From Platanthera guangdongensis (lineage: Eukaryota; Streptophyta; Magnoliopsida; Asparagales; Orchidaceae): a DNA stretch of 64,000 bases. Positions 2,089-53,480 of this stretch are shown piece after piece. The translations under genes and the position numbers were made by a program. A model generated the notes under the pieces. The model was given only the letters and a program-made list of their open reading frames with translations. It searched no databases and had not been told where the DNA came from. The stretch spans positions 23,554,208 to 23,618,207 of the forward strand of contig CM077151.1 of NCBI GenBank assembly GCA_039583875.1. Reading direction: 5' to 3'. Within the stretch, counting starts at the first letter, position 1; each line of letters begins with the position of its first letter.

Positions 2089-2165
2089 CTCCTCCCTCTT
2101 GAATGCTTTAGCATTTGGACAGCATGAGTGATTCATGCAACTTTGTAGAGGGAAGAATGCAGTCC
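2089..2165 (-). CDS. ATXR2: ATXR2-like exon F (SET-domain NHS motif)
   Basis: This 77-bp exon lies between acceptor GTCTAACAG and donor GTAGCT. It starts with two nucleotides completing Gly, then encodes GTAFFPLQSCMNHSC followed by CPNAKAFKREE. NHSCCPN is the conserved SET-domain motif that contributes to the S-adenosyl-methionine pocket. The next expected segment (starting DRDGQ in this family) is absent between here and position 1, so the gene continues past the left edge through an intron holding an Ale-type Copia. Confidence 0.86.
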
Positions 2166-2333
2166 CTGTTAGACAAGTAGATGGAAAGAATCAGGAACAA
2201 CACTGAGAAAGGATTATAGCAAGTTGATAATTAGAAAAAGTAATTGCAAAAAAGGGTAATTTAGTCCCTCAAGGGTTAATCAAAACAATAAAATGACCAA
2301 CTTTTTTTTTAGTTCGACTGTAAGGGGTTGTTA

Positions 2334-2618
2334 TGTGCACATAAATCAAAATGGATTTTTGGGTCTGCCCTCTCTGATGTCTTTGGCTTTGATTTGAGGG
2401 CATGATTCCGCAGCAAACGTGATGGTATAGGGGTCACTATTTCAGTGGTATCAGTGAGCAGCCACTTTGTGCGTTTATTGTCAAAGGTTAGGTCTTTCTC
2501 CTCTGAGAGAAGCCACTTTGTGCATAGTGTCAAAGGTTAGGTCTATTTCCAATCTTCCCCCGCCCATACCCCCAATGATTGGGGAATATATGGGTTCTGT
2601 TGTTGTTGTTGTTGTTGA
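2334..2618 (+). mobile_element. (TTG)n-tailed retroposon (RTE LINE 3' end or TS-like SINE)
   Basis: This 285-bp insertion is flanked by a 17-bp target duplication, ACTGTAAGGGGTTGTTA at 2317-2333 and ACTGTAAAGGGTTGTTA at 2619-2635 (one mismatch). Its 3' end, with CCCCAATGATTGGGGAATAT and then GGGTTCTG followed by (TTG)n, resembles the shared 3' end of plant RTE LINEs and TS-type SINEs. No clear Pol III B box was found, so a 5'-truncated RTE copy is as likely as a SINE. A segment of about 40 bp (GCCACTTTGTGC to GGTTAGGTC) is repeated inside. Confidence 0.75.
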
Positions 2619-3738
2619 ACTGTAAAGGGTTGTTAAGGAATTGATCTAAAGTTGATTAGACCTCAGCTCATGATCGACACAAAATCATTAAATCTGATCT
2701 TAATCGAGCTAATTCTTGTTAGGTTAGTTTGATATGATCCTGATTGTAGTAGGGTATATGGTTTGTTAACTTGGATTAAAGCTAAATTTGATCCAGAATG
2801 AACCAATTTTTATTGCTTTTGAATTTCCCAGGACAAATTATTAGTCCAATAGATTGGCGAGCACAACCACCGTGAGAGTGAAGAAGATACAGACACTAAG
2901 AGGGCGTACTCGAGACATGAAACCATGATGGATCCTGCGGAACCATCACACAACACCAACCAGCATGGGATCATTCTTCTATTTTGACTTTGACATCTTA
3001 ATTAATGCATATTAATTCTGTTATTACACTTATTATTTTGTCACTGGACTAGGGTTACGTAGAGTAATGTGTTGTAAGAACTCTTTATATTTGGAGTAAG
3101 ATTTTGGATCACAAGGCTGACAAAAAAGCAATCCTTCTATCACGCCATTGTGAACCGGGATACTCTGACTCATTCAGATATAGTTGCAGATATCGACCCC
3201 TAGGGCACAATGCCAATTAAAAAAATTTCCACTCTCTCCCTTCTCTCTCTCCAACACTGCTCTTCCTTTGATCTTTGAGACAATTTTCTTCACCCAATTG
3301 GGTAATGATTTGTAGTATTCATTTTTGGTGACAAATTCATTTGGAATACTCAATTTTTGCCTTATTTGACCCTTCTAGCGCCATAACTCGTATGGAAATT
3401 AAGCACATTGCGGACTGTTAAAGATCCAAATCTTAGTATATGCTTTTGGCATACGACAGCTCTAATTGATGAGAAATTGATATTTATGAGTTAAAATGAA
3501 AAAGTAAAACACTAGTGACATTGCTTGAAAGATAGAAAGTTTCAAGTTGTAGAGCAAAGATAGTACATGTAGTGTAATTTTAGTCAGGTGATATTAAGAA
3601 TTATCAATTTATCTTATTAAAATATAAAAAGACGCCTATGACTCTATGAGTGAAAAGTTTAAATATCTTGGATTAATTATTCAAAAGAATGAGAGTATTG
3701 TGAATTGATGATGATATAAGCACCAGAGTTAAGACAGG
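2619..3738. other. Intronic sequence, no gene seen
   Basis: AT-rich unique-looking DNA inside the 10.5-kb intron. A CT-rich patch lies near 3230-3255. No coding or transposon hallmark was recognised. Confidence 0.4.
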
Positions 3739-5328
3739 GGCTCTGTTTGGAACAGCTTATGCAGATGAATAATCTCTACTTAAAACGCAAACACAGTTTT
3801 TCAGCTGTTTGTTTGTGCATCTTATACAAAATCACTTATTTTAGAATGGACGATAAACTGATTTTTCATAAGCTAACAATGTCCAGCTTATGCTTTCTCA
3901 TAAGAGTTTATCCCTTAAAAAACTCAAAGTTGATTTTTTTCGCCCGGGATTGATTTTTTCGCAAGGGTGTGATTTTTTTGCCAGAGCTCATATTTTTCGT
4001 CCGATGGCGTATTTTTCGCCTGTGCACGAATTTTTCACTCGTGCGCGAATTTTCCACCCGGACGCGAATATTCCGCCCGTGTGCGAATTTTCTGACCCGA
4101 CACGAAATTTTCGCCTGGGCGCGTTTTTTTCCACCCGGACGCGTTTTTTCGATCGGGCGCAATTTTTTCGCCGGGGCGCGATTTTTTCGGTCGGGCGCGA
4201 ATTTTCGACCGGACGCGGATATTTTCACACGGGCGCTATTTTTCGCCCGGGCGCGAAATTTACGCCCGGGCGCGAAATTTACGCCCGGGCGCAAATTTTT
4301 TGTCGGGGCGAGAAATTTTCCGCACAGACGCGATTTTTTCGCACGGGAGCTGTTTTTTCGTCCTGACGAGATTTTTTTCGCTCGACAGAGATTTTTTTCG
4401 CCCGACAACAATTTTTTCACCCGAGCACGAATATTTCGCCCGCGAGCATTTTTTTCGGCCGGACGCGATTTTTTTGGCAGAATTCCTTTTTTCGCTGCTG
4501 TGCAAAAATATCGCGTGTGAGCAAAAATATCACGTACAGACAAAAATATCGCATCCGGGCCAAAAATCACGCCCAGGCAAAAAATTCGCTCTCGGGCGAA
4601 AAATTCGCGCCCGGTAGAAATTCGCGCCCGGATGGAAAATTCAAGCCCGTGCGAAACATTCGCGCCCGGTCGAAACATTCGCACCCAAATATCGCGTGCG
4701 AGCAAAAATATCGCGTGCGAGCAAAAATATCCCGTTCGGCTGAAAAATTGGCGCTCGGGCGGCGCGCATGGGCGGAAAATTCGTGCCCGGGTGAAACATT
4801 TGCGCCCGGGCGAAAAATTCGAGACCGGGCGAAAATTCGCGCCCGAGCGGAAAATTCGCGTCCGGGCGAAAAATTCGCGCCCGTGCGAAAATTCGCGCCC
4901 GGGCGAAAAATTCGCGCCCGTGCGAAAATTCGCGCCCGGGCAAAAAATTCGCTCCCGGGTGAAAAATTCGCGCTCGGGCGAAAAAACTGCGCCAAAGTGA
5001 AAATACCGCGTCCGAAAAAAAAACCGCGTCTGAGCGAAATATTTGCGCTCAGACGAAAAATTCGCGGCCGGAAGAAAAAATCACGCTAGTGTAAAAAATT
5101 CGCACTCATGCAACAAATATGTGTCTGAGTGAAAATCGCGTCCGGACGGAAAAAACGTGTCCAATTGAACGGACTTTTACGAATGAATGAAACTTTAGAT
5201 AAGCACTTATGGACAAACTATCCAAACAGTGTACTGCTTATTCATCATTGTTTTTATAAAATCTCTTTCAAAGCATCAATTTTCAATAAGCAGCTTATTC
5301 ATCATCATAAGTTGTCCCAAACAGAGCC
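3739..5328. mobile_element. TIR DNA element (Harbinger/MITE-like) carrying a GC-rich array
   Basis: The ends are inverted repeats. The left end reads GGCTCTGTTTGGAACAGC, and the right end read on the other strand GGCTCTGTTTGGGACAAC. Similarity continues inward as CTTATGnnGATGAATAA for about 35 bp. The same terminal sequence occurs in the element at 32094-33319, which has a TTA target duplication. No target duplication is clear here. The interior is almost entirely the array at 3930-5165, and there is no transposase, so the element is non-autonomous. Confidence 0.65.
3930..5165. repeat. GC-rich ~19-bp tandem array that reverses strand at its midpoint
   Basis: From about 3930 to 4495 the unit reads ATTTTTTCGCCCGGGCGCG on the plus strand. 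From about 4500 to 5165 the same unit is reversed, reading GCGCCCGGGCGAAAAATTC. Roughly 60 degenerate copies are present and many CpGs are retained. Because the unit rarely yields stops, long overlapping reading frames appear on both strands; they are artefacts. The two arms could fold into an imperfect hairpin of about 1.2 kb. Confidence 0.85.
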
Positions 5329-5625
5329 AAGGTGGTTAAAATAGAGTAGTGTCCTCGGAGTACTACGAAATGAGATAATAATATTATGGAGATTTAGAGA
5401 TAAATTTTATAAAACCGTACATACGACCAAGATGATGTTGAATGGCTTTAACTATTAGAGAGTAAAAATACCATTGATATTTAAGTGGAGTGATAAATAT
5501 TAACATGATATGATAGATGTGTTGAAAAACTAGAAAACATAAATTAATGTATAATTTTACATTAGAAAAATAACGAAAATAGCATCTGCTAAAGAGCAAT
5601 ATACTTGTCTACGGATCATGAAAAC

Positions 5626-5818
5626 TTTAGAGAACTGGTGCAAACCTTATATATGGTTCTTAATTAATAAAATACAAGTATGAGTACAAATATATAGGAG
5701 AGAAGGAAGAGAAAGAATCTTATACAAAGGATGCGGGACTAAATAAGAGGATCAAGTGGGCTTATAAATGGGTCACACTAATGGACTTTTACATCTTTTT
5801 TCCTAATATTATCTAACA
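5626..5818 (-). repeat. 3' LTR of Ale-type Copia
   Basis: It matches 10673-10863 closely (TGTTAGATAATATTAGG at the minus-strand start). The outer end is slightly mutated, TCTCTAAA for TCTCTACA. The PPT next to it, GCAGGGGAG on the minus strand (5819-5827), is intact. Confidence 0.88.
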
Positions 5819-6188
5819 CTCCCCTGCAAGCGGGAGCATACAAGTCGTAGGCATCAAGCTTGGACAAGAACTGATAGTACATTTGCCTTGGTAATGTCTT
5901 GGTGAGAACGTCAGCAACTTGCCCAGAAGGCGGAACATGCTCTAACTCTAACTTCTTCAATTGAATCTTTTCCCGAACAAAGTGACAGTCAACTTCGATG
6001 TGTTTGGTCCGTTCATGAAACACAGGATTCTTTGCAATATGGATCGCAGCCTGACTGTCGCAAAACAGAGTTGCTGGTGAGGATAGAGTGACTTCCAAAT
6101 CACCAAGAAGACTCTCAAACCAGGTAAGTTCAGATACAACGACCGTCATTGCACGATACTCGGCTTCAGCAGAAGAACAAGCAACCAC
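5819..6188 (-). pseudogene. Copia RNase H
   Basis: Minus-strand sequence reads [20 protein letters not shown] near its start, then [30 protein letters not shown] and DVLTKTLPR, the canonical Copia RNase H series. The frame is open here for about 130 codons to a stop inside the LTR. The join to the RT segment upstream needs a frame change near 6190-6210. Confidence 0.85.
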
Positions 6189-6206
6189 AGATTGCTTCTT
6201 GCAACG

Positions 6207-7169
6207 TCAGGTGATAAGGTTCCCTCCAAAGTAGGTACAGAAACCCGTGGTGGAACGTCGATCATCAAGGGAGCCCGCATAGTACGCATCTGAATATGCA
6301 ACAAGAGATAGAGAAGAAGATGACTTATATACAAGCCCTTGTCCATGAGCTGTCTTCAAATATCTGAGGATATGTTCTACTACCTGGAGATGAGAAATCT
6401 GAGCATGCATTAACCGGCTGACCACTCCAACAGCAAATGAGATATCAGATTTTATAACCGTCAGATATATCAGTTTTCCTATAAGACGCCGATAGTATTC
6501 GGGATTCGTAAGCAGAGAATCTGAATCAGACCCATGAGCACATAACTTGTGATTGACATCCATCGAGGTTTTCGCGGGTTTGCACCCGGAGTAGCCTGCA
6601 TCTCGAAGGAGATCAAGACAGTACTTTCGCTGTGAAAGAACAAAATCATCAGGTCGTCTTGCAACCTCAAGTCCAAGGAAGTACCAGAGAGTCCCAAGAT
6701 CTTTTGTTTGGAAAACAAATTTTAAGTGTTGTTTGACTTGTTGTATCCCTGTGGAATCATCTCCAGTAATAAAAATATCATCCACATAAACCAGGAAAAT
6801 GACAGTTCCGGTTGATTGATGACGAGTGAAAAGAGATAAGTCAGTCGAGCTTCTTTTGAATCCAACTTGGCGAACGACCTTACTAAATTTGTCAAATCAA
6901 GTTCTGGGAGATTATTTGTGACCATAAATAGATTTTCGGAGATGACACACACGAGACTCCCATGTGGTCTCAAACCCGGGAGGTTGGTGCACGTAGACCG
7001 TCTCGAGAAGGTCGTCATTCAAAAATGCATTTTTGATATCCAGCTGATGGAGGGGCCAGTTGCGATGAACAACTAAGGAGATCCGGACCCGAACAGAATT
7101 TAACTTTGCGACGGGGGAGAAAGTTTCATCATAATCAAGACTTTGTTGTTGAGTGAACCCCTGGGCCAT
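6207..7169 (-). pseudogene. Copia reverse transcriptase, broken
   Basis: The N-terminal part (6912-7169) contains AQGFTQQQSLDYDETFSPVA and QLDIKNAFLNDDL. It ends at a stop just after KSIYGHK, where a Gln-rich LKQ is normally found. The C-terminal part (6207-6810) has the intact catalytic LVYVDDIFITGDD, LGLEVARRPDD and LIYLTVIKSDISFAVGVVS. At least one stop (near 6912) and one frame change separate the halves, so no active enzyme could be made. Confidence 0.85.
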
Positions 7170-7226
7170 AATACGGGCTTTGAGGAGGTCAACTGTCCCG
7201 TTCGTAGCATGTTTGACTGCAAAGAC

Positions 7227-8290
7227 TCACTTACAGCTGACACAAGATTGTCCCGGAGGAAGAGAGACGAGATCCCAGATCTGGTTGGACCAAATGGCTG
7301 TCATTTCCTCTTCCATAGCTGCACGCCACCCTGGGTGAAGAAGAGCCTCCTGCACCGAGTTAGGTAGAGAGATAGAAGATAAAGAGAGTGCAAACTTGAG
7401 GAGAGGTAGAGATAGGCGATGCAGAGATACATGATTTGTCAGGAGATGAGCGGTAGATGTTGATGTTGGATCGTCAGGCCGCAAGATAGCACTGATAGAA
7501 GGTAGCTGTTGTAGGGCCCCAGAGAGCGGAGTACGACGGGTGTATGCACGAAGAGGTGGTTTATGTGAAACTGATGCCGGGAGTGGAGTGGTAAGGAGGG
7601 GTGGTAGAAAAGACGTGACGGGAACGGTAGGACAAGGTATGGGAGGAGAGAGAAGAGGACCTGAAGGTGAAACATGAAATGGCTGATCTTCAAGAAAGAT
7701 GACAACGGCGGAGACTATCACTTTGTTAGTGGTGGGAGAATAACACACATAGCCCTTTTGGGCCTGAGAGTACCCCACAAACATATACTTGTTGGCACAA
7801 GGGACAAACTTATTTGTGGATGGACCCAGATTGTGGACGTAACAAGTACATCCAAATACACAAGGGGTGAGGGTAAACGGGGATTTGGAAGGAAACAAAA
7901 GACTGAACGGAGTGACAAAATCGATTATGGAGGAGGGCATGCAATTGATGAGTTGACATGTTGTGGACACAACAAAGTTCCAGCATAGGGTGGGTACCTA
8001 CACTGGTATTTGAATCATGAGTGATTGAGCAACATCAAGAAGATAACGATTCTTTCGCTCGGCCACCCCATTCCGATGAGGCGCATACGCACATGATATT
8101 TGATGTATACTGTCAAACTCAGTGCATAGATTAGAGAATGTCCGGCTAGTGTATTCGCGAGCATTATCAGTACAAATTATCTTTAAGGGTGAGGAGAATT
8201 GAGACGAGTTTCCGTAATAAATGCTCGAAATGTAGAGGTCAGTTCAGCACGATCGCGAAGTAAGTACAACCAGTTCAACCGAGAGTAATC
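7227..8290 (-). pseudogene. Copia integrase, broken
   Basis: Reading leftward from about 8120, the minus strand gives AYAPHRNGVAERKNRYLLDV, including the third catalytic residue (E of GVAER). After a frame change come the conserved C-terminal FGCTCYVHNLGPSTNKF and VGYSQAQKGYVCYSP. A Pro/Ser/Thr-rich linker to RT follows. The HHCC region and first catalytic residues lie in decayed sequence around 8290-8450. Confidence 0.8.
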
Positions 8291-8452
8291 ATCAATAAAA
8301 GTGACGGTAAAGATAACTAAACATACTAGGGATTTTATATGGTCCTCAAATATCAAAATGTACTAAAGAGAGGGGGAGTATCACTCCGAGTACAAGTAAG
8401 ATGAAAAAAAGTACGATGTTGTTTGCCAAAAATACAAGATTCACAAGTAAAC

Positions 8453-8964
8453 TCATGCAAAGAGACATCCGAAGAGCTTTCTTGAGAATCTGGAGGGGGG
8501 CATACCCAAGACGACGATGTCAATTGACAGAGGAGACAAAGGAGAAAGCAAAAGGTGGAAAATCCATGAGGTAAAGCCTGTTAGACAGCCGACCCTTACC
8601 AATGATATTCTGCATCTTCCGATCCTGCACAACAAAGGTAGAGGATGAGAATGTAACACAACATTTAAGATCCTGAGTAAGGCGGCTGACAAAGATCAAA
8701 TTAAATGGTGATCCCGAAACATGAAGGGTCGAAGACAGAGAGATTGAGTGTGAGAGAGATATCAGCAGCGCCGGACACTGGGGTGGTATCACCATTGGCC
8801 ATAGTGATGAACTTGGGATGGGCAGTCAGCAAGTATTGAGGAGGTCGTTGCGAAGTAATATGGTATGTGGCTGCTGAATCCACAATCCAGTGAGAGTCCT
8901 GTGCGAGACAGGATATACCTTCATTGGAAATTGATGCAACTGCTCCAGATGAGCGGGTAATCAT
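8453..8964 (-). pseudogene. Copia protease and pre-integrase region
   Basis: The protease motif reads HWIVDSAATYHITS at about 8855-8900. The usual DSG triad has become DSA. The flap-like FITMANGDTTPVSGAADI follows, then HVSGSPFNLIFVSRLTQDL and the pre-integrase stretch in a second frame. The frame break near 8700-8790 inactivates it. Confidence 0.78.
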
Positions 8965-9913
8965 CCCTTGGAGATGTTGGAGCTGGGTGCGTAGAGCATT
9001 GATGTCCTCGCGAGTGGAAGAGGTAAAGTACGTTGTGGGAGAATTTGGAGGCTCAGCTTTAGCAAAGGCAGCAAGATGTGGAGGCAGATCATGTTTGCGA
9101 CAGCAAGTAACCTCAAGGTGACCATCCCGTCCGCAATACGTGCATTTAAAGGAAGACCATCAAGTACGTCCTCGTCCCCGAGACGTGTTGAGACCCTTAC
9201 GGGCCGAGGAACCTCGAGTTGTTGGAACAGGTGTAAGTTGTTGTAGAAGAGCTGGAGAGAGGCACCGGAGCATCCAGGGGCAGGGTAACCTTCAGAAGCA
9301 TAGAGCAAACATCTGACAGAGAGAGAGTTATAGAGGAAGAGAGAATCTGAGCCCGAACGTTGTGCAAATGAGAAGGAACACGGGCCGTCATCATAGCAAT
9401 CCCGACTGTTTCATTCTGGGCCCGTTGGGTAACCAAATCTGTGGTAGGAGGCAGATGTTGTATCCAATCCTCAACGAGGGTCTTGGCCTTGGCAACAAAG
9501 GAGATCATATTGTCTGGTGCCTCGGGATCAAGAGTTTGAAGGTCCGAGAAAATGTCGAATAAGTGTTGAAGGTTGTTCTACCCAGAATAGAGGGAGTGGA
9601 TCTCCTCCCACATTGTCTTTATCGTTTCATGATACATAGTCATCATGTAAGGTTCGGTGTCCATTGTGTTTAGAAGCCATGATTGGACACGACCATCATC
9701 ATGAATCCACTCATCGGTGGGAGCAATAGAAGTAGCACGTGTCAGATGATGATGAAGGCCTTTCGTCTGCAACACCGTGCAAACAGAGTGCAGCCAAACC
9801 ACAAAATTCCGCTTCCCGCTAAGGGAGATGGTGGTAATCCGGAGTTTATCACGGAGTTCAAACGTGGGGGGAGAAGCACGAGCTGGTAGGGTGGAAGCAT
9901 CGGCAGGATCCAT
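8965..9913 (-). pseudogene. Copia gag, broken
   Basis: The start at 9913 gives MDPADASTLPARASPPTFEL, then LSGKRNFVVWLHSVCTVLQT and MWEEIHSLYSG, a UBN2-type Copia capsid. A stop or frameshift near 9578 breaks it. The middle (MISFVAKAKTLVEDW, QNETVGIAMMTARVPSHLHN) resumes at 9508. A zinc knuckle FKCTYCGRDGHLEVTC lies at about 9105-9155. Seven hundred and sixty bases of leader separate the Met codon from the PBS, which is long for the family. Confidence 0.78.
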
Positions 9914-9954
9914 GAGGAAGCGGACTGGGAGGATAGAACAGACGGTTAAAGGTT

Positions 9955-10660
9955 GCGGACTGAAGAGAGGAGTTGCGGCTAGGAGAGCACGCGGCTAGAC
10001 AAGGTCTCAGCGGTTAAATAGGAGACCGCAGCGATAAGAGAAGATTGCACCGATAAAGGCAAGACCGCCGCGACTAGATTAGATCGATGTGCCTAGATGA
10101 GAGTGCAACGGTTAGGGTGAGACCGTCACGCCTAGAATAGATCGCAACGATAGCGGCCAAGAGAAGATCGCAGCGGTTAAGGTTAGACCGCAGCGACTAG
10201 ATGAGAGTGCAACGGGTAGAGGCACAACGGGTTAAGGCGAGACTGCTATGAGAAGAGCAATCCGCAAGGAGAGCGGTTAGAAGACAAGTGCAGCGGGAAG
10301 AACGGCGGGGCGAACAAAGAAGACCACGACTGATCAAACTGGAACAGAGGCCGCAGCGGAGAGAGAAATGTCGGAGCGACAAGCAAGCAGATCGCAACGG
10401 AGAAGAGAGACCTTTGCAACAAACGAGAAGATCGCGAGCAGAGGGCGGTCAGAAGAATCTTAACCGCAAGCCCGATTGGAGAGCGGGTAGTATAAAAGGG
10501 GAGGCAGAGTAGGGAGGGGAAAGAAAGTGGAGGCCACGAGATTTTTAGGAGGCGGCGGCGGTTAGAAGAAGCCTAATCACGCTCTGTGCGAGAAGGGAAG
10601 GCAAAACCAAGCTGGCGGTTAAAAAACTCTTAACCGCAAGGGCCAAGGAGAGACCGTTTC
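9955..10660 (-). repeat. Degenerate repeats in the 5' leader of the Ale-type Copia
   Basis: The plus strand carries many variants of CGCAGCGGTTAAG, GAGACCGCAGCGA and AGATCGCAACG spaced about 20-35 bp apart, between the PBS and gag. They occur in the 5' untranslated leader. The sibling element at 1-1544 has lost the region. No fixed period was found. Confidence 0.65.
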
Positions 10661-10672
10661 GCTCTGATACAA
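10654..10672 (-). promoter_or_regulatory. PBS (tRNA-iMet type) of the Ale-type Copia
   Basis: On the minus strand, directly after the LTR, the sequence reads TTGTATCAGAGCGAAACGG. It matches the TGGTATCAGAGC initiator-Met tRNA complement with one change. Confidence 0.85.
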
Positions 10673-10863
10673 TGTAGAGAAATGGTGCAAACCTCGTATA
10701 TGCTTCTTAATTAATAAAATACAAGTATGAGTACAAATATATAGGAGAGAAGGAAGAGAGAATCATATACAAAGAATGTGGGACTAAACAAGAGGGTCAA
10801 GTGGGCTTATAAATGGGCCACATTAATGAGCTTTTACATCTTTTTTCCTAATATTATCTAACA
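10673..10863 (-). repeat. 5' LTR of Ale-type Copia (191 bp)
   Basis: TG...CA ended. The minus strand begins TGTTAGATAATATTAGG and ends ACCATTTCTCTACA. It aligns along its whole length to 5626-5818, with only scattered differences in the stretches compared by eye. Confidence 0.9.
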
Positions 10864-11032
10864 GAAACATAGGAGGATGACATCAAAGAATTTGTCAGAT
10901 GTGGCACTTGGTAGCTCAAGATGAAGAAAACAAAGTAAGCTTGAATCTCTCAACAAATGGAGAGGACAACACTCTTAAACTCATAAGAGGACTGCGGATT
11001 AGACAAATATTCTCATAACCTAATAACCCAAC

Positions 11033-12216
11033 TGATGGGGATCCATCAGATCATGCACCGGGAGGGGTTCGTCGGGGTTCGCCGCAAGGCAGGACCCACG
11101 TTCGTGTACTCGCGCAGGAATTGATCGGATCGCCGACCTGACTCCGCAGATGCGTCTAGATCCACGTCGCAAATTAATTTCATATATTACTTTATTATTT
11201 TAACATTTATTTTGATGTATTTGGGTAGCTCAACCACCGGTTAATCATAGTCGTCGATGGTGGGATGACCTAGTTGCTTTTTTATTATAAATATGATGTT
11301 AGTGGGCTATTGCAGGTTTTGGAGATTTCAATCCTGGAATCTCACGATCACCCCACGGTGCCGACTCTGTGGAACCCTAGGTGACGACTCCTAGGCGCTC
11401 ATCCTTCCGCCCAAGATACTACACAACCATAGCCCTCTTTTTCCCCACCTCCAATCACTCTACCACCGCCCGAAGCCTCCCCATACCGCTGGCTGAAAGT
11501 TGCCCCCTCTTTCCAACAGCAGTCAGACCTCTTCAACCCATCCACCGCCGCCCCAAGCCTCCCAACCACCCAACTTCACCGCCGACCCCCTCCTCCCCAT
11601 TTTGAAGCCACTGCCGCTCATATGCCCCCCTACAGTCGTCGGCTTCATATCTGGAAGCCTCCGCCAACCCCTCCTCCCCATGATTCATCCGCCCCCTTCC
11701 AATCCAACACCTCCCCCTTGTCACCAGCCACCCTCAGCAACACCCCCTCCTCTGTGGCACCACTCCCAGCCCCCCGTTGTCCGATCTACCTCCCACCGTC
11801 TGGATCCTCTCCCGCACACCCAGATTTAGTGCGAAAAAACTCTCTATTTGGTGAGTCACTTGTTGTATTGAACTATCATTTTCAGCATTACTTATTGAAT
11901 TAGGTATTATTATTTTGCTTGGATATATTGTCTGTGGAAAGAACGCTTCGAATTGCTTGTGACTTGCAGGTGGGTTCCATTTGCCGCGAGTTTTGCCTTA
12001 GCCCTCCGAGCGGAGGAAAGCCATTAATTGTTTGCTTCTTGAATGCTTATTTTGTTTTCAAATATTCTTGTGTGGGTTGACTATTATTGTTGCTCGTACT
12101 TAATTCGTCACCGTCACAGACGGTATCATTGCATATAGACTAAGACTAGCGTTCCTAGTCTTCATTTTCATCCCTAGCAGTCTAGGTTCTATGCACCCCT
12201 AGCCTACCCTACATCA
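11033..12216 (+). mobile_element. Solo LTR (1184 bp) with 5-bp target duplication CCAAC
   Basis: It starts TGATGGGGATCCATCAGATC and ends CTAGCCTACCCTACATCA, so the ends are TGATG...CATCA. It is flanked by CCAAC at 11028-11032 and 12217-12221. A homologous LTR in opposite orientation occupies 29665-31071. A TATA box (TATTATAAATA) lies near 11283. No internal domain remains, as expected after LTR-LTR recombination. Family unknown, probably Ty3/Gypsy. Pro/Ser-rich reading frames at 11381-11903 are not coding evidence. Confidence 0.92.
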
Positions 12217-12679
12217 CCAACAACAAAGTGCAGATGGTGAAAAGGTAAAATGAGCATACCATGGTGAGATTACTGGCAACATGAAAAAGAACCAACAATA
12301 TTAGAAAATAGACTTAGGTGATTTGTGTATGTGCAATAAAGATTAGAAAATGTACCAAATTGACAAGTGGATAGAGTTACTGCCAAAAATTTACCACCTC
12401 AGGCAACACTCGACAGAAACAGAGGGAAAATGAGGACAAATGAAAATTCATAAAACTGGCCCCAATTACTTGAATGGTCAGGATGAAAATAATGAGTCCA
12501 TTAGCTTTTTATAAACTAAGTTCATATAACTTAATGGAACCTTTTCTAGAATAATTTTTTTAAACATAAAATATGAATGATGTCAGATAAGTGGGCAATT
12601 AAAGAAAATGCAAATCTTCCTTATAGTGGTATTTTAAAACAAATTACTTCGGTAAATAAATCCAGTTTGAGAAGGAGAC
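12217..12679. other. Intronic sequence next to exon E
   Basis: Ordinary AT-rich intron DNA between exon E and the solo LTR. No further exon of the gene is visible here; the next one is exon F at 2165. Confidence 0.5.
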
Positions 12680-12749
12680 CTTCACAGCAAACTGAATAAT
12701 CATCATAAAGTTCATCTAGAAAAGGTCTAGTCAACTTCTCAGTTTCTTC
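12680..12749 (-). CDS. ATXR2: ATXR2-like exon E
   Basis: This 70-bp exon follows acceptor TTGTTGCAG and has donor GTCTCC. It encodes EETEKLTRPFLDELYDDY and then SVCCE, leaving one G. That G pairs with GG of exon F, 10.5 kb away, to give Gly, so the join reads SVCCEGTAFFPLQS as in the ATXR2 family. The donor is weak beyond the GT, which fits a junction dependent on exon definition next to a very long intron. Confidence 0.83.
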
Positions 12750-12817: not shown

Positions 12818-12887
12818 CTTATTGGGAGATGGAAGATCATCAACATATATGAAGTAGTCCTCAACTGGTGATGCCACGACAAGACCA
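12818..12887 (-). CDS. ATXR2: ATXR2-like exon D
   Basis: This 70-bp exon lies between acceptor AATATTACAG and donor GTCGAA. One T completes Leu. Twenty-three codons follow, reading GLVVASPVEDYF and then IYVDDLPSPNK, ending in phase 0. It belongs to the family segment just before the SET core. The following intron is only 68 bp and ends TTTTTTGTTGCAG. Confidence 0.83.
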
Positions 12888-13023: not shown

Positions 13024-13078
13024 AGATTATTGAGCTCAAACATGCCAATAATGTGGCCATATATTTCAAGTGAGAACA
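13024..13078 (-). CDS. ATXR2: ATXR2-like exon C
   Basis: This 55-bp exon lies between acceptor AATTCTGCAG and the strong donor GTAAGT. It begins with two nucleotides completing Leu, encodes FSLEIYGHIIGMFELNN and ends with CT of another Leu codon. The IGMFELNNL stretch is highly characteristic of ATXR2-type SET proteins. The flanking introns are 96 and 136 bp, normal plant sizes, in contrast with the two giant introns. Confidence 0.84.
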
Positions 13079-15943: not shown

Positions 15944-15958
15944 ATCTCCCCCTATTTG
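15944..15958 (-). promoter_or_regulatory. SIRE polypurine tract
   Basis: The minus strand reads CAAATAGGGGGAGAT immediately before the TG of the 3' LTR, where plus-strand DNA synthesis is primed. Confidence 0.88.
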
Positions 15959-19380: not shown

Positions 19381-19383
19381 TAA

Positions 19384-20814: not shown

Positions 20815-20817
20815 ATC

Positions 20818-43015: not shown

Positions 43016-43020
43016 AATTT

Positions 43021-43039
43021 TTGGCGTCGTTGCCTGGGA
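43021..43039 (+). promoter_or_regulatory. Athila primer-binding site
   Basis: TTGGCGTCGTTGCCTGGGA matches the Athila-type PBS TGGCGCCGTTGCCGGGGA (tRNA-Asp 3' end) with two changes. Confidence 0.85.
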
Positions 43040-43379
43040 CTTGCGTCAATATTTTGAAACAAGGAATAACTATTAATTTTATCTTTTTTTCCTTTTATTT
43101 TTTCGTTTCCCGAAAAATCTTAAAGGTGCAATTATATTCCCAGAAAGGGTCGTTTGAGATTTCACCCGATCATACCGCGGGAAGACCACGGGTTAATAAT
43201 TTTTATTATCGTGGAAGACCCTATCATACCTCACAGGGTAGATTTCGGGAAGTTCAGGACTAACTTAAATCGCCTGAAAAAAATCCGTTAATAATTTTAG
43301 CTTTCCTTCTCATTATCGTCTCATTTCTTCTTCTTTTTTTCTCTTTTTCTCTTCTAGTGCATGACCTGATCAAATTCTT

Positions 43380-44735
43380 TGAATAATCGCAATATTGAAT
43401 TTGATTCAGAGGTCGAGCGCACCATTTGGCAACGCCTATGAACTCGTGATCAGGATTTAACTTTAGATCTCGAAGAGTCGATTGGAGACACTACACCAAA
43501 AATTATGGGTGAACCCAATCCCAGTATGAATGAGGCCTAGCAATAGACTATGTCGTGTTATGTGCGGCCGAACTTGGAAGGGACACAATCTAGTATTGTT
43601 CGTCCTACGATGACAAACAATAATTTTGAGATCAAATCTAGCATCATCCAAATGGTGCAACAATCGGTAACCTTTGATGGTCTGTCAGACGAAGATACAA
43701 ATTCCCATATTGCTAAATTTTTTTGAAATCTGCAACACATTTAAAATCAATGGCGTTGTTGATGACGTCATTCGATTATGTTTATTTCATTTTTCCTTGC
43801 GGTCAAAGGCCACTCCTAGAGGATCCATCACTATGTGGGCCGAAATGGCGAAAAAATTCTTAACTAAATACTTTCCTCCGGCAAAGACGGCTAAATTGCG
43901 CACTCATATCGCTTTGTTTATGCAAATCGGCTCGGAGACTCTCTACGATACATGAGAGCGCTTCAAGGAGCTTTTGTGTAGATGTCCTCATCATGCACTT
44001 CCTACTCGACAACAAGTACAAATTTTCTATAATGGTTTAAATTTCCAAACAAGACAAATAATTGATGCAGCCGTCGGGAGTACTCTTAATAATAAACCCT
44101 GGAGGCCGCTCAAGAGTTTTTCGAGAAAATGGCCATGAACGGTTACCAGTGAAATGTGCTCCGGTCGCGTCCTAATAAACCAGCCGGTCTTTTCGAAGTT
44201 GATGTGACGGCAGGTTTGGCCATGCAAATTGAGCGTTTAAGTAAGCACGTGACGGAGATGTATGCTTCCTTTGTCACTCCTTCGTTGAATTATAATAATA
44301 ATGTAAAAGAAAAGCAGATTGATTTCATGGGGAATCCGCCTTGGCATTTCTATAACCCGCCCAACGTTCCGTACAATAACGATTACACCTCGGGTTATAG
44401 GAACCACCCGAATTTCTCACGGAGCCACCAAAGTAATGCCCAACATCCTCCAATTATTAATCCACCAGGATTTCCACTAGCACCACAGCTCCTAAATCCC
44501 TCTTCAATTGAAGAGGCACTTTCAATATATGTTGCATCTAATGAGTCAAATATCCGGAATCTCACCGGATGAATTAAAACTTTGGAAAATCAAATTGGGC
44601 AACTTGTCAAAACGTTCTCCGAGCATCAGCATGGAGCCTTACCAGGGAATACCAAACCGAAACCGAGAAAAAGCGTGAGCGCCATCACCCTCCGCAGCGG
44701 AAAGAAGGTAAATATTTCAAATAAGATCGAGCCGA
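43380..44735 (+). pseudogene. Athila gag, copy A
   Basis: Reads VTFDGLSDEDTNSHIAKFF, then after a frame change EICNTFKINGVVDDVIRLCL and AKKFLTKYFPPAKTAKLRTH, the Athila capsid signature. After a stop come RCPHHALPTRQQVQIFYNGL and SIEEALSIYVASNES. Several stops break it. It ends at about 44731 in a join that removes the protease region: the sequence passes from AAATAAGATCGAGCC to TCTTATAAAGAACCACC, which lie about 1.2 kb apart in copy B. Confidence 0.78.
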
Positions 44736-44736
44736 C

Positions 44737-46335
44737 GTGTTACATCTTATAAAGAACCACCCTCTTTTGAACTAAAACAACTTCCCGACCATCTTAAATG
44801 TCTTTTTAGAAAAAATTCAAAACTTCCCGTTATTATTTCTTCAGAGTTAATTGATTCAGAAATTTTTGAATTAGTCCTTCATTCTGCACCCACAAAATAT
44901 TATTAGAAGATGATTCTCTCAACACGGTTCAGTCGTAACGACGACTTAACCCCAACATGAAAGACGTCATTAAGGCTGAGTTGATTAAGCTTTTAGATGT
45001 GGGAATAATCTACCTGTTTCGGATAGTACGCGGGTTAGCCCTGTACAGGTCGTGTCAAAAAAAGACGGAATAACGGTAGTGGCAAATGAAAACAACAAAA
45101 TAATTCCGACTCGTACTGTTACGGGATGGCGGATGTGCATCGACTATAGAAAACTAAACGATGTCACCCGAAAAGATCACTTTTCGTTACCTTTTATCGA
45201 TCAAATTTTAGAACGTCTTTTTGGTCACTCCTACTGTTTTTTCGATGGTCTCTCGGGATAATTTCAAATCCCTATTTCACCTAAGAACCAGGAGAAAACC
45301 ACATTTACTTGTCTATTTGGCACCTTCTCGTATCGAAGAATGTCGTTTGGCCTTTGTAACGCGTCAGCTACATTCCAAAGATGTATGTTGGCGATCTTTG
45401 ACGAGTTGGTAGAGGAGTTGATGGAGGTCTTTATGGACGACTTTTTCGTCTTCGGAAATTCGTTTCAATCTTGTTTATATAATCTTGATCGTGTTCTTCA
45501 ACGCTGTGAAGACACGAATTTAGCTTTAAACTGAGAGAAATGTCATTTCATGATCCGAGAAGGATTAAGCCCCGATCATAAAATTTTTAGTAAAGGGATT
45601 GAGGTTGATAGGTTCAAAATTGAAAATATTGAAAAACTTCCTCCTATGAACATAGAATCAATTAGAAGTTTTTTAGGCCACGCGGGATTCTATTGGCGAC
45701 TTATACAAAATTTTTCAAAAATTACAAAGTCGTTAACCTACCTTTTAGAAAAAGATTCTCTTTTTGTTTTTAATGATGAATTGTTATTTGCGTTTAATAT
45801 TATTAAAGAAAAACTATCAACTCGCCGATATTAGTAGCGTCAGATTGGTCCTTGTCGTTTGAAATTATGTGCGATGCGAGCAATTTTGCGATTGGAGCTG
45901 TGTTAGGACAATGCATAAACAAATATTTCCATCTTATTTACTATGATTGCCAAACACTAACATCCGCACAAGCCAACTACACAATGACGGAAAAGGAACT
46001 TCAAGCTATTATATTTGCATTTGATAAGTTTAGATTATATATTACTCTAACTAAAGTCATAATATTTACGGATCATTCTGCTCTCAGGTATTTACTAAAC
46101 AAGGCGGACGCCAAGCCCCATTTATTGAGATGGATTCTCCTTCTACAAGAGTTTGATTTGGAAATCTGGGACAAGAAAGACGTGAAAAACTTGGGGGTCG
46201 ACCATCTATCGCGTTTAGAGAATGATGTTGAGGATGCGCTAGTGGAGGCCGATATAGACGATAAATTTCCTGAAGAGCGCATCCTCGCTCTCGAAAAGAT
46301 AACTAATTCTTCTTCTACCCCTTGGTTCGTTGGAT
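44737..46335 (+). pseudogene. Athila reverse transcriptase and RNase H, copy A
   Basis: Carries IPTRTVTGWRMCIDYRKLND, LPFIDQILERLFGHSYCFFD, FGLCNASATFQRCML, the catalytic EVFMDDFFVFG, IRSFLGHAGFYWRLIQNFSK, then RNase H CDASNFAIGAVLGQ, TMTEKELQAIIFAFDKFR and FTDHSALRYLL. A TAA at about 45260 replaces a Tyr codon after GLSG, and a TGA at about 45533 replaces a Trp. The end (SSTPWF) runs directly into gag of copy B at about 46335, with no integrase. Confidence 0.85.
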
Positions 46336-47045
46336 TTTCTATAATGGTTTAAATTTTCAAACAAGTCAAATAATTGATGCAGTCGCCGGGAGTACTCTTA
46401 ATAATAAACCCTGGAGGCCGCTCAAGAGCTTTTCGAGGAAATGACCATGAACGCTTACCAGAGAAATGTGCTCCGGTCGCGTCCTAATAAACCAGCCGGT
46501 CTTTTCGAAGTTGATGCGACAGCAGGTTTGGCCTTGCAAATTGAGCGTTTAAGTAAGTACATGTCGGAGATGTCTGCTTCCTCTGTCACTCCTTTGTTGA
46601 ATTATAATAATAATGTAAAAGAAAACCATATTGATTTCATGGGGAATCCGCCTTGGCCTTTCTATAACCCGCCCAACATTCTGTACAATAACGATTACAC
46701 CCCGGGTTATAGGAACCACCCGAATTTCTCATGGAGCAACCAAAGTAATGCCCAACATCCGCCAATTATTAATCCACCAGGATTTCCACTAGCACCACAG
46801 CTCCTAAATCCATCTTCAACTGAAGAGGCACTTTCAATATATGTTGCATCTAATGAGTCAAATATCCAGAATCTCACCGGATGAATTAAAACTTTGGAAA
46901 ATCAAATTGGACAACTTGTCAAAATGTTCTACGAGCATCGGCATGGAGCCTTACGAATACCGAACCAAAACCGAGAGAAAGCGCGAACGCCATCACCCTC
47001 TGCAGCGGGAAGGAGGTAAATATTTCAAATAAGATCGAGCCCGAG
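46336..47045 (+). pseudogene. Athila gag, copy B (C-terminal part)
   Basis: It duplicates 44027-44735 nearly base for base, beginning at TTTTCTATAATGGTTTAAAT. It encodes LRSRPNKPAGLFEVDATAGL and STEEALSIYVASNES. It is cut into frames by a stop after IQNLTG, the same stop as in copy A. Confidence 0.82.
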
Positions 47046-47279
47046 ATAAATATTTCTGTTTCATCGTCACCTGTTTTATTTCCTGTTTTACCTTCTACTA
47101 TACCTGCTACTTTATCGCCACGCATACTGCAATCTTCTATTTCGTATCCGTCAAAGTTTAGAAACGAGCAAAACGAAAAATAATATAAGTAATTTTTAGA
47201 CATTTTAAAGCAAATTCAAATTAATGTACCTTCTGCGATGCACTATCTCAAATGCTCAAATACGCGAAGTATCTCAAGA

Positions 47280-48178
47280 AGTTACTCTCTAATAAAAAAA
47301 TTTGATGATATTTTGTGTGTTTCTCTCAGCACAGAATGCTTCGAGGTTTTACAAAATAAATTGCCCCAAAAATTAAATGATCTGGGATGATTCTCTATTC
47401 CGTATTTATTTGGTAATTTGCTAGTCAAACACACGTTGGGTGATTTGGGACCAAGCATAAAGTCATATTCATTATTTAAGAAGTTAGGATTGGGAGATCC
47501 AAGCCCAACAAGAATAAGTATCCAATTTACCGATCGTTCAGTTAAATATCCGGTAGGGATTGTGGAGGACGTGCTCGTTAAGGTTGACAAGTTTATCTTC
47601 ACGGTAGAATTTGTCATTCTTGACATTGAAGAATATGTCGAATTATCCCTCATACTCAGCCGCCCCTTCCTCGTCATATTCATTATTTAAATTATTCGGG
47701 ACGATTATCTAACCTGTGTTTATTTTGTAATTTGCTAGTCAAACACGCCTTGACCGATTTGGGAGCAAGCATAAATTTAATGTCATGTTCATTATTTAAG
47801 AAGTTGGGATTGAGAGATCAGAGCCCAACAAAAATGAGTATCCAACTCGTTGATTGCTCAGTTAAATATCTGGTAGGAATTGTGAAGAACGTGCTTGTTA
47901 AGGTTGACAAGTTTATCTTCCCAGTATACTTTGTCATTCGTGACATTGAAGAGGATGCCGAAGTACCCCTCATACTCGGTCCCCCCTTCCTCATCACCTC
48001 CCGCGCAATAATTGATGTGAGTAACGGAAAGCTCCTCTTTCGGGTTGGAGATGATGAAATTACTTTTCACATTAATCTCTCTATGCGAAATTCTCTTTCA
48101 AATGATCATTCGTTCTTTAATCTAGAAACCTCGTTTGATGGTTGTTTTTCTTGCTATGATTTTTTCTTCAACTTTTGA
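47280..48178 (+). pseudogene. Athila aspartic protease, two tandem copies
   Basis: The first copy (47418-47690) reads LVKHTLGDLGPSIKSYSLFK and VLVKVDKFIFTVEFVILDI. The second (47732-48178) reads LVKHALTDLGASINLMSCSL and PLILGPPFLITSRAIIDVSN. The catalytic DLGAS is intact in the second copy but DLGPS in the first. The two are about 80% alike over about 270 bp and lie about 315 bp apart. Confidence 0.75.
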
Positions 48179-48267
48179 GGATCCAAAAATTGTCACTATG
48201 TTTTGCGTTAAAAAGATAACTCGTTCATCACCCTTTGAGCCATTTAATTTAAAAGATTTCAAAATAA

Positions 48268-48965
48268 AAATCTCTTATAAAGAACCACCCTCTTTTGAAC
48301 TAAAACAACTTCCCGACCATCTTAAATATGTCTTTAGAAAAAATTCAAAACTTCCTGTTATTATTTCTTCAGAGTTAATTGATTCAGAAATTTCTGAATT
48401 AGTCCTTCATTCTGCACCCACAAAATATTATTAGAAGATAATTCTTGCAACACAGTTCAGTCGTAACGACGATTTAACCCCAACATGAAAGACGTCATTA
48501 AGGCTGAATTGATTAAGCTTTTAGATGCAGGAATAATCTACCTGTTTTCGGATAGTATGCGGGTTAGCCCCATACAGGTCGTGCCAAAGAAAGATGAAAT
48601 AACGATAGTCGCAAATGAAAACAACAAACTAATTCCGACTCGTACTGTTACGGGATGGCAGATGTGCATCGACTATAGAAAACTAAACGATGTCACCCGA
48701 AAAGACTACTTTTCGTTACCTTTTATCGATCAAATTTTAGAACGTTTTTTTGGTCACTCATATTGTTTTTTCGATGGTCTCTCTGAATAATTCCAAATCC
48801 CTATTTCACCTGAGAACCAGGAGAAAACCACCTTTACTTGTCTATTCGGCACCTTCGCGTATCGAATAATGTTGTTTGGCCTTTGTAACGCATCGGCTAC
48901 ATTCCAAAGATGTATGTTGGCGATCTTTGACGAGTTGGTAGAGGAGTTGATGGAGGTCTTTATGG
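48268..48965 (+). pseudogene. Athila reverse transcriptase, copy B (truncated by chimera)
   Basis: It duplicates 44745-45434. It encodes MKDVIKAELIKLLDAGIIYL, PTRTVTGWQMCIDYRKLNDV and LPFIDQILERFFGHSYCFFD, then the same TAA as copy A after GLSE. It continues to MEVFMD at the catalytic site, where it stops and Copia sequence takes over. Confidence 0.85.
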
Positions 48966-49859
48966 ATCTGATTAAGATTCTCTGCTTACGAATCATGAGT
49001 ATTAACGACGTCTTGTAGGAAAAATGATATATCTAAAAGTTATAAGACCCGATATCTCATTTGTTGTTGGAGTGGTCAGCCGATTTATGAATGCTCCGCG
49101 AATTTCTCATCTCCAGGTAGTAGAATGCATCCTTAGATATTTGAAGACAACTCCTGAACAAGGATTGGTATATAAGTCATCTTCCTCCCTATCTCTTATT
49201 GCATATTGAGATGCGGACTATGCGGGCTCCCTGGATGATTGACGCTCCACTACGGGTTTCTGTACCTACTTTGGAGGGAATCTTATCACTTGGTGTAGCA
49301 AGAAGCAGTCTGTGATTGTTCGCTCTTCTGCTGAAGCTGGGTATCATGCAATGACGGCCGTTATATCTGAACTCACCTGGCTTGAGGGTCTTCTTGGTGA
49401 TTTGAGGGTCACTTAATCCTCACAGCAACTCTGTTTTGCAATAGTCAGGCTGCAATCCATATTGCGAAGAATCATGTGTTCAATGAGCGGACCAAGCACA
49501 TCGAAGTTGACTGTCACTTCGTCCGCGAAAAGGTTCAATTAAAGAAGTTAGAGTTAGAGCATGTTCCTGCGTGAGCAAGTTGCCGACATTCTCACGAAGG
49601 CATTACCACGACAAATGTATCATCAGTTCTTATCCAAGCTTGGTGCCTACGACTTGTACGCACCAGCTTGCGGGGGAGTGTTAGAAAATACTAGGAAAGA
49701 TGATATATAGGCCCGTTAATATGGCCCACTTAGGTTTCTGTTTTAGTCTCGCATTGTTTGTATAGTTGTTTTTTTCTCTCCTCTCTCCTATATATTTGTA
49801 CTTATACTTGTATTTTGTAATTCAATAAGGATATATAAGGTTTGAACCATTCTTATACA
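48966..49859 (+). mobile_element. 3' end of an Ale-type Copia fused to Athila RT
   Basis: Plus-strand Copia sequence starts inside RT (CTGATTAAGATTCTCTGC) and continues through IRPDISFVVGVVSRFMNAPR, HLQVVECILRYLKTTPEQG, RNase H ([34 protein letters not shown]), a PPT (GCTTGCGGGGGAG) and a 3' LTR. It is the same family as 5626-10863. The 5' two-thirds are absent. Confidence 0.85.
49679..49859 (+). repeat. 3' LTR of the fused Ale-type Copia (181 bp)
   Basis: Starts TGTTAGAAAATACTAGG directly after the PPT and ends TTTGAACCATTCTTATACA, matching the Ale LTRs at 1364 and 10673. Confidence 0.82.
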
Positions 49860-52205
49860 AATCAACTAAACTGGGAGAATATTTGTTGTTAATCAGATAA
49901 CAGAAAATGAAGCATAAGAGAGTATACGAGTATAAGAGAAAATGATAAGTACGGAGATTTGAGATCCTATGGAGCTTTGAGAGCAGAAATGAATCAGAAA
50001 CTGAATCTCATACAAAAAAAAAACTATATTTCAATGAACATATAATCATTCCTATGAGCAAAATAGAAACCAAAATGCTTATCAGGAAATGCATAAACGA
50101 TCATTCCCAGGAAACAACAACGAAAAAAAATCTAAATCTGGAATAAGGAGCATTTCTGAAATGGGAGGGAAAAATGGAGAAAAAAACCTAGACATGAAAT
50201 GGGAGAAAAAAAACCTAGATATGAAATGGGAGAAAAAAACCTAGATATAAAATTGGAGAAACAAAACAGCAAAAAAACCTAAATCTGGAAAGGGAGAAGC
50301 AAAAACACATCGATACAAAGGGGAATGAGCATTTCTAGAATGGGAAAACGCAAAAAAACCTACATCTGAAGAAAATCGAAAAACTGGAAGGAGACGGGGA
50401 AGTGGATGGCGGATTCATACCTTTGAATCCAGATCTGGAAGGAAATCGACAAACAGGAAGATCGTCGGAAATTCGGGAGCAAACCGTTCAAATATGGAGA
50501 AGAAACTTAAGGGTTTCTGGGTCAATGGTGTCATAAGCCTCTGCGTAGCTTTGAGGTAAGATTACGCTCAACACTTCTAAAGAAAAATCGTGGCCCAACA
50601 CCTTAAAAGGTGTGGTAAGCGTGGAGAAGAGTGGAACTTGAAACCACAGAACATGGCAGACAACCGAGATCCTGAAGCTTCGGTGCACCGAATTCATCAC
50701 CGGGCGGGAGCTGACTACCATCCAACAGGTCGTGGTTGCCCTCGTTCAGGTGGTGCAAATCCTCAACCACTTCCACAGCCAAACCTCATCCCCACAACTC
50801 CCACAATAACCCACTCCCCTTTGGGTGAATCCGTATGCATCACCCAACACTGCTCCAATCCTTCTCCATACAACTCCACCAACATCCCACCAAATCCCTA
50901 AACCACTCCACTGAAAGAACAAGAGGGATTTTGCCACAAAAGCAGCAAGCTACTGTTACGGGGGTCCATGCGACTAGGGCACCCTGGCATCGGGAGGCAA
51001 CCAGGCAACCTCGGGGGCCCACGGCTGATTCTAGTGGTGGGAGGGTCCACGACTCAAAATTGGTTTAATTAAGAGATTGTAGTCAGGTCCAAGGAAAAGA
51101 GTAATTAACTAAGATATTAGGCTGGACATGAGTACATGGGAGGGTTCACGACTCAAAAAAGTTATTGGGCTAGCGTGGGGATCCATGCAGAAAGGCAAAA
51201 ACAGAGATCGCAATTGCTTTAACTGGAGCTTGGAAAGGGATATAACAGGTTGCTATGGTGAATAGTTCGAATGACGAAAATGAGAAAAGGTAAGGTAGGG
51301 ATGTGAAATGTCATCGTTCACAGCAGCGGATTATACTATTGGAAAGGACGAGGCGTGCACGAGTTGGGCAAGGAGAGAGTGGGGCGCTCGGAAACATAGT
51401 GGAAGGGCGGCACTTATTCAGGGAATGGGTGAATCTCGACATGTAGAAGGGATTGTGATGCGGGAAGGCGTCGGGGAGTTGGAGCGGATAGTGTACTGCA
51501 AGTTTTGTCGCAGACGAATGTGCGTACGTGGGTTGGGCTCTCGATAGAAGCTCGGTCTGCTCATCGACCGAGTGAACCTGGGAAAGTGGAGCTGATAGAG
51601 TTTGTAGTCGAAGATGTGGAGATATTTGCTCTGGCTATGATAGTAGAGTGAATAATGAGACTTAGTGGACGAAGATCCCGGGGCTGAGCCATCATTTTAT
51701 TACTGGGTCTGATCATAAAGGTCTGTACGAAAAAGAGGGTTAGCTCAGATGCACGATCATTTATGAGTTGTACTGGCCGAAGCATCTCTTTGTCATGATA
51801 TATCCGCGTAGCGACTGAGTGGTGAAAATCAGTGCGGATTTAGCGGATTTCAACGTGAATGGAGGCCATGTCATGTGGGGGAATTCGACACAAGAGAGAT
51901 CCATAACAAGGGTGTAAAATGACGTGGTGAGAGGGCTAGTTCTCGGCAAACCATAGAATGTTGGACAAGGAGCGGCAGGGCGGATCTGTTGATAGCTTCC
52001 GCTATCGTCGAATGAAAATACGTAAATTAATGCAAAAGAAGAGACAAGATTGCAAGACAGACTCGATCTAGTCTCTTGAAGGTAAGATCACTAAGAGTCA
52101 ACTCTCCTATGAGAGCCTAAACAAGACAATGCTCTAAGATAAGATAACTTCTCACGCTAAGGGCTCCTTATGTAGATGGTGACTCACTAAATGACAAAAC
52201 ACACA
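49860..52205. other. Unclassified intronic sequence, possibly an old Gypsy element
   Basis: Apart from the short repeat, a plus-strand ATG at 50653 begins MADNRDPEASVHR. After a frame change it continues with IQQVVVALVQVVQILNHFHS, which could be a decayed gag start. GC-richer sequence to about 51960 has no clear domains. I could not find LTRs or a PBS. Confidence 0.3.
50160..50300. repeat. Short tandem repeat, ~25 bp unit
   Basis: Four to five degenerate copies of ATGGGAGAAAAAAACCTAGA lie in AT-rich DNA after the Copia LTR. Confidence 0.65.
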
Positions 52206-53392
52206 ATTACGAATACAATATTACCCATAAAAAAAAATTCCGTCTGGAGAGAACTCTTGCGGAATGAGGTCGGTCGTCCAAATGCGCATGGTACGTGTTC
52301 GCACAAGAGTATTTGTAACAAAATACCATGACTACATCATATAATGATATTAAATGCTCTTGAGTGGTCATCTGGATCCCCAATTGCCAAAGGTGGTATT
52401 TCAAATGGTGTGTATACACATTATATGTGCATCAGTAATCTGGATCGATTTAGGCGTGCAAGAAGAGATTTGTATATGCATCCATGCATATTAGGACAAA
52501 TACACCTTAAAAATTAACCATTTTGAATATTTTTGGATGAAGGCGTTAAGGAAACTAAAGTTTGCAGAATATCATAGCTCGGAAAAATACTTACAAAGGA
52601 GTTAATAAATCTAGTTGAGATTCGATGGTATCAAATACGTAACTGGAATACACAAAAACCCCACAAAATCAGTGTCAAACAAACTAAACAAATGTGTCTA
52701 AAGTATACCTGCAATGAAACAGTAAATTCAGATTCATTTTGGAGTTTGTCGAAAACCGAATGCAAAAAACTATTTCTCTATTAGTATCCATGTTTGTAAC
52801 TCCTATGTAGTTTGTCCAACAACCCCGTGGAAGGAAGATATGTTTTTGATGCAAAGTACTAGCTTCGTCTCTTCTCGGAGACCTCCTCCAATTCTCACAC
52901 ATTTCTCTCTGCAATGTGGTTTTTCTTTTTTCTAATCCACACAAAAAGATAACTGACAATTTCATGTAGCGAGAGAGAGCGTTTTGAAAATACATTAATA
53001 GAGAAGTTACGAACTTTCGGAATTTGTCCATTCAGTTCCAAACGGAATTATTAACTCTAAATTAATTAAAACCCCAAATTAATAGTTCCAAAATCAATTG
53101 ATTAACTCTAAATTAATTAATATTCATTAAAACATTTTGTGGCCTGGGTTAAGTTAAATCCGACTTAAATTAAACCAACCCTATCATTCTTCCTTTTTCA
53201 GTGCCATCTTAATCATATAGGTATATATTATGTTGTCTGTGACGCTAATCTCTTGACTGTCCTAGAGCATAACCTCCAATACTAGCTAGAAAAAAAATCA
53301 GGAGCAAGTAGAAACTATTCCACATATTGTGGCAAGTCCCACTACCTACAATAAACAAATTTCTAAAAAATACTGAAACGGATAATGCTTAC
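52206..53392. other. Intron sequence downstream of exon A
   Basis: AT-rich. 53040-53120 repeats TCTAAATTAATTAA and similar motifs. A 115-codon minus frame (52684-53031) looks like LTR leader sequence rather than a gene. A near-copy of the exon A acceptor lies at 53328-53362 (see findings). Confidence 0.35.
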
Positions 53393-53480
53393 AGAGAATG
53401 CCAAGTCTCTTATTGAATTCCTAAATGATGTTTCCTCGCAACTATCCACATCAGCTGGTAAAGCAATACAGTCCCACCAC
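53393..53480 (-). CDS. ATXR2: ATXR2-like exon A (most upstream visible)
   Basis: This 88-bp exon is preceded by acceptor TTTATTGCAG and followed by donor GTAAGC. One nucleotide (G) completes a codon from the previous, unseen exon, which suits the Arg that usually precedes WWD. Twenty-nine codons follow, beginning WWDCIALPADVDSCEE and ending IRDLAFS, in phase 0. In the ATXR2 family this segment lies just before the SLQLLKEAIF stretch, and that stretch is exactly what the next exon, 40 kb away, encodes. No stop is present. Confidence 0.8.

Follow-up and report, generated by a model that had tools for sequence, protein, structure and literature searches.

We found that the orchid Platanthera guangdongensis carries an intact and apparently single gene for the SET-domain histone methyltransferase ATXR2, which probably still works and whose introns have very probably been swollen by inserted LTR retrotransposons and other repeats. 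The window, the stretch of 64,000 bp that we analyzed (C5:23554208-23618207; the genome totals 4,245,561,818 bases in 274 contigs), holds 6 of its 15 exons, and we located the others by a genome search and by using the ATXR2 protein of Platanthera zijinensis as query against a surrounding region of 264 kb. The whole gene runs along the minus strand from a start codon at C5:23701334 to a stop codon at C5:23551089. This span of 150,246 bp contains a coding sequence of 1,479 bp, a share of 1.0%. The initial annotation had described six minus-strand exons in exact phase, with introns of 40,169 and 10,514 bp and three short ones; AG/GT borders, continuous phase and intron lengths (96, 136 and 68 bp for the short ones) all agree with that description, and the gene is larger than described there. 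The two outer introns, given as longer than 2 kb and 10.5 kb, measure 4,952 bp and 19,160 bp. Within the window, the exons and the two long introns between them are as follows (window positions):

53393..53480, minus strand: exon 8, 88 bp, with AG and GT borders and phase kept
13224..53392, minus strand: intron 8, 40,169 bp
13175..13223, minus strand: exon 9, 49 bp
13024..13078, minus strand: exon 10, 55 bp
12818..12887, minus strand: exon 11, 70 bp
12680..12749, minus strand: exon 12, 70 bp
2166..12679, minus strand: intron 12, 10,514 bp
2089..2165, minus strand: exon 13, 77 bp, which carries the NHSC motif of the SET domain

Over the whole gene, exons 1–15 measure 87, 76, 86, 350, 113, 32, 152, 88, 49, 55, 70, 70, 77, 57 and 117 bp, and introns 1–14 measure 14,272, 35,828, 195, 511, 260, 22,525, 19,160, 40,169, 96, 136, 68, 10,514, 4,952 and 81 bp, such that six of the 14 introns exceed 10 kb. 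All 14 acceptors are AG and 13 donors are GT; the remaining donor, in intron 1, is GC (C5:23701247-23701246, the first two intron bases). GC is a less common splice donor than GT. The P. zijinensis protein reads on across the junction that has the GC donor here. The 15 collinear exons yield a protein of 492 aa, the length of P. zijinensis ATXR2, with only eight differences from it, which rules out a chance series of exons. The region is rich in repeats, and a mis-assembly that moved groups of exons would make the intron lengths wrong; we consider this extremely improbable, since the 264 kb contain zero N and all 15 exons lie on one contig in order, orientation and phase.

We next consider the identity of the protein. 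The six window exons translate into 137 aa; of 108 candidates from a database search with this piece, 71 reached E<=0.001. The best match was an unnamed plant protein (P0001; E 9.3e-70, 80% identity, query covered to 100%), and the best match bearing the name ATXR2 was from Lathyrus oleraceus (E 1.7e-59), in agreement with the ATXR2-like identity first proposed. The piece scored 14.9 bits against the Pfam SET model, below the 22.4-bit cut-off, probably because the window contains only part of the domain. By contrast, the full protein has a SET domain above the cut-off (PF00856, E 2.1e-14, 54.3 bits); a candidate MYND-type zinc finger (PF01753) scored 21.3 bits, slightly below the cut-off of 22.7. 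An NHSC motif lies at residues 421-424 and a CxCxxC motif (cysteine-rich tail) at 480-485. The absence of stops noted for the window exons extends to the entire 492-aa frame, which has no internal stop. With the full-length query, 425 proteins matched at E<=0.001, led by 'Histone-lysine N-methyltransferase ATXR2 [Platanthera zijinensis]' (96% identical, 100% query cover, measured with a query whose gaps were written as X), followed by a Dendrobium protein (76%) and a Phalaenopsis protein (74%). Five of the first ten matches are named ATXR2, and query cover was 97-100% in all ten. Solved structures found by sequence match are SMYD and KMT2-type SET enzymes. Judged by its sequence, the protein is orthologous to Arabidopsis ATXR2 (AT3G21820).

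The P. zijinensis protein (P0072) is also 492 aa long, with 484 of 492 residues identical and no gap; it differs at eight residues, the comparison being one of proteins. We aligned the best 120 of the 425 database proteins and computed column conservation on the 119 other than P. zijinensis. Of 158 columns at least 95% conserved among these plant proteins, the orchid protein deviates at two, both common to P. zijinensis, and none of the eight differences between the two Platanthera proteins falls in such a column. An intact frame that keeps the conserved columns is the pattern expected from selection for function, and a full ATXR2 transcript is presumably made and spliced. The initial annotation expected ordinary annotation to miss the small exons; this is contradicted by the 492-aa P. 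zijinensis record, which includes the amino acids that the 32- and 49-bp exons encode, although it is a protein record in which intron lengths are not seen.

A genome search with an approximate ATXR2 query gave 13 matches, 10 of them at the gene described here. We rejected C5:59774843 as a second ATXR2, because the SET/MYND-like gene there, with one frame of 401 aa, is a different one; C14:106547047 (E 1.0) and C2:109181858 (E 9.9) are weak matches. No second copy was found within the reach of this search, which is that of the better-conserved exons: the query missed exons 1, 2, 6 and 14 of the known gene, which were recovered by the 264-kb search with the P. zijinensis protein. Among the findings that would speak against its reading, the initial annotation had named a second ATXR2 copy that is intact and expressed; the genome search offered no candidate for such a copy.

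The introns had been described as packed with transposons, including nested retrotransposons. We recognized LTR elements from paired repeats and then checked their borders for target-site duplications. Five elements have 5-bp duplications, in introns 1, 2 (two elements), 8 and 13, and a nested mosaic repeat lies in intron 8, in line with the description. The repeats that we delimited are listed below in window-based positions; the first three lie past the window end:

140655-146129: LTR element in intron 1, with a 5-bp target-site duplication
125184-129737: LTR element in intron 2, with a 5-bp target-site duplication
106147-109468: LTR element in intron 2; its duplication lies inside a TA run and is weak evidence
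44022..48966, plus strand: decayed Gypsy-like remnant in intron 8, with an RNase H domain on the plus strand
34715..42052, no strand assigned: recent mosaic repeat of 7.3 kb in intron 8
14032..26771, minus strand: Copia LTR retrotransposon of about 12.7 kb within intron 8, with LTRs of about 1.95 kb that are 95.0% alike and the duplication CACTG
5628..10863, minus strand: Copia element in intron 12, in the gene's orientation, with 191-bp LTRs 92.1% alike and RVT_2 and SH3 domains
3935..5079, no strand assigned: GC-rich fold-back array of 1.15 kb in intron 12
-2607 to about 1543 (window part 1..1543), minus strand: Copia-like element in intron 13, with 182-bp LTRs 91.8% alike and the duplication AACAC

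In a Pfam scan of 20 window frames, eight matched at E<=0.001 (two matches are below curated cut-offs), with domains of Copia reverse transcriptase, integrase and related types, and Gypsy-type RNase H. The 12.7-kb Copia element has RVT_2 and rve domains and lies in the gene's orientation. We looked for a target-site duplication at the borders of the intron-12 Copia element and found none; the intron-13 element is 77% alike to it over 2.6 kb. The Gypsy-like remnant has interrupted paired repeats that are 93.5% and 94.1% alike. A strict scan (perfect hairpin and CTRR) detected no Helitron ends in intron 8. Jukes-Cantor divergence between LTRs was 0.0315 for the 12.7-kb Copia element, 0.0714 for that in intron 12 and 0.0751 for that in intron 13, corresponding to insertion ages of ~0.95, 2.2 and 2.3 million years at a rate of 1.65e-8, which is from PMC9023349 and is taken here as per site per year, where the paper prints 'per Ma'. 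The matching short duplications that flank five insertions also argue against mis-assembly of the region.

The mosaic repeat has copies on C10 and C20 that are 98-99% alike, with nearly identical outer ends and ~4.35 kb extra in the middle, and C6 carries a relative of its uninterrupted flanks, 84-89% alike (39 of 10,584 candidates were scored in this search). The whole copies on C10 and C20, together with the uninterrupted flanks on C6, indicate that the mosaic repeat is nested in another repeat. We found no target duplication of 7-10 bp at its ends, no inverted repeat in self-comparison, no terminal repeat, and no Pfam match in the three frames scanned (34750-35163, 37191-37868 and 38681-39088). 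Four of its pieces (36985-37432, 37699-38461, 38446-39050 and 39047-42051) each match their own set of loci. The fold-back array at 3935-5079 consists of 19-bp units on the left and their reverse complement on the right, with a CpG observed/expected ratio of 2.08 versus 0.42-1.09 elsewhere in intron 12. Intron 7 contains GC-rich tandem arrays of 20-bp and 46-bp units, at 58260-58606, 61316-62106 and 62386-62748.

Very probably, LTR retrotransposons and other repeats inserted repeatedly into existing introns, so that 1.5 kb of coding sequence now extends across 150 kb. Such insertions were probably tolerated because the transcript is spliced, and selection kept exons and splice sites. Alternatively, ATXR2 could be silenced or a young pseudogene, its exons intact-looking while transcription fails across the transposon-filled introns. 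Three Copia elements, one each in introns 8, 12 and 13, share the sense of the gene, and their LTRs could end transcripts early; the intact frame, the conserved columns that are kept, the equally complete P. zijinensis protein and the failure to find another ATXR2 in the genome search make this explanation improbable.

To place the intron lengths of ATXR2 in the context of its own genome, we used matches to cullins (28 rows) and MCM domains (44 rows), assembled into 12 control genes. An overlapping weak cullin row (C7:282103304) was dropped, leaving 27 rows in four genes. Six MCM rows were dropped, namely the single matches C14:154199333, C9:91285289, C21:154171409 and C2:195282898 and a second C2 copy (184821059 and 184821222), leaving 38 rows in eight genes. 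Weak rows that we kept are C12:231010866 (E 0.017), C7:282032094, C11:24317891 and C4:10460450, and MCM rows 149228326, 149348166 and 149126348 on C16. A control gap is the distance between neighboring exon matches in the domain only, not in the whole gene, and may hide missed exons, making it an upper bound for each intron. The largest gap per gene was 27,136, 39,318, 22,532 and 87,544 bp for the cullins, and 301, 5,530, 11,035, 202, 423, 10,782, 33,264 and 119,774 bp for the MCM genes; four of the eight MCM domains have no 10-kb gap. Overall, the largest gap reached 10 kb in 8 of 12 control genes and exceeded 40,169 bp in two. Without the weak first exon of the C12 cullin, which then has no gap, these numbers fall to 7 of 12 and 1 of 12. 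The 119,774-bp gap on C16 is doubtful, as row 149348166 resembles a stray match on C9 (same model part and frame length); a 54,639-bp gap on C16 is bounded by firmer rows (E 4e-4 and 3.5e-6). Domain matches of this MCM gene (C16:149126348-149348285) are spread over up to 222 kb. On C2, two MCM exon matches recur as a pair with identical scores ~52 kb away (184821059-184821344 and 184872769-184873054), a local duplication inside an MCM gene region.

ATXR2 is at the long end, yet within the range of other genes in this genome, and the initial view of its structure as striking does not hold here, given the domain-internal gaps of the control genes. Gaps of equal size in other genes also speak against mis-assembly of the ATXR2 region. 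The swelling of the ATXR2 introns is real but ordinary for its lineage, and its class has already been described in orchids. Genes stretched in this way are frequent here, so that gene-finding programs have to accept introns that are tens of kilobases long or longer.

Giant introns might instead be adaptive, with a heterochromatic intron acting as a switch or timer for a chromatin gene. The precedent is IBM1, a chromatin gene with a long methylated intron whose transcript depends on methylation of that intron (PMC11265718). Orchid ATXR2 is likewise a chromatin gene with a long intron; the methylation-dependent transcript is a finding on IBM1. Comparable gaps occur in control genes unrelated to ATXR2, and there is no orientation bias among the insertions: by the letters of primer site and purine tract, three of six LTR elements are gene-sense (introns 8, 12 and 13) and three lie against the gene (introns 1 and 2), as does the RNase H of the Gypsy-like remnant. 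We therefore regard adaptive giant introns as very improbable. There is a similarly slim chance, by analogy with IBM1, that ATXR2 output is heterochromatin-dependent, with full-length readthrough needing intronic silencing and IBM2/EDM2-like machinery. If so, an H3K36 methyltransferase would sense the state of its own transposons, as IBM1 does for H3K9 demethylation.

Stretching by ordinary intronic insertion, the reading that we prefer, makes ATXR2 a well-delimited example of intron swelling in a flowering plant, with the gene intact and the insertions of different ages. Our literature search found no paper on the structure of the ATXR2 gene described here. Arabidopsis ATXR2 (AT3G21820) is described as an H3K36me3 methyltransferase in callus formation (PMC10199984); its activity was described in that species and the orchid protein is likened to it by sequence, such that the encoded enzyme may methylate H3K36 as in Arabidopsis. 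In Platanthera genomes, LTR content is 71.78% and 73.24%, in a paper whose main text does not contain the word 'intron' (PMC9023349). SET-domain genes of Dendrobium and Phalaenopsis have introns far longer than those of Arabidopsis and rice, in a study whose main text does not include ATXR2 (PMC6986063), and the same long-intron trend has been reported for Chloranthus and magnoliids (PMC8626473). A close parallel is MSH1, a different gene, in a study whose main text is without Platanthera (PMC10487979): orchid MSH1 genes are stretched by LTR elements to 55,035-225,727 bp, 85 orchid introns (26.98%) exceed 10 kb, and plant MSH1 introns reach 101,025 bp (Vanilla), with length tracking transposon content. 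ATXR2 matches this type of stretching, having several introns longer than 10 kb with LTR retrotransposons and an unchanged coding length.
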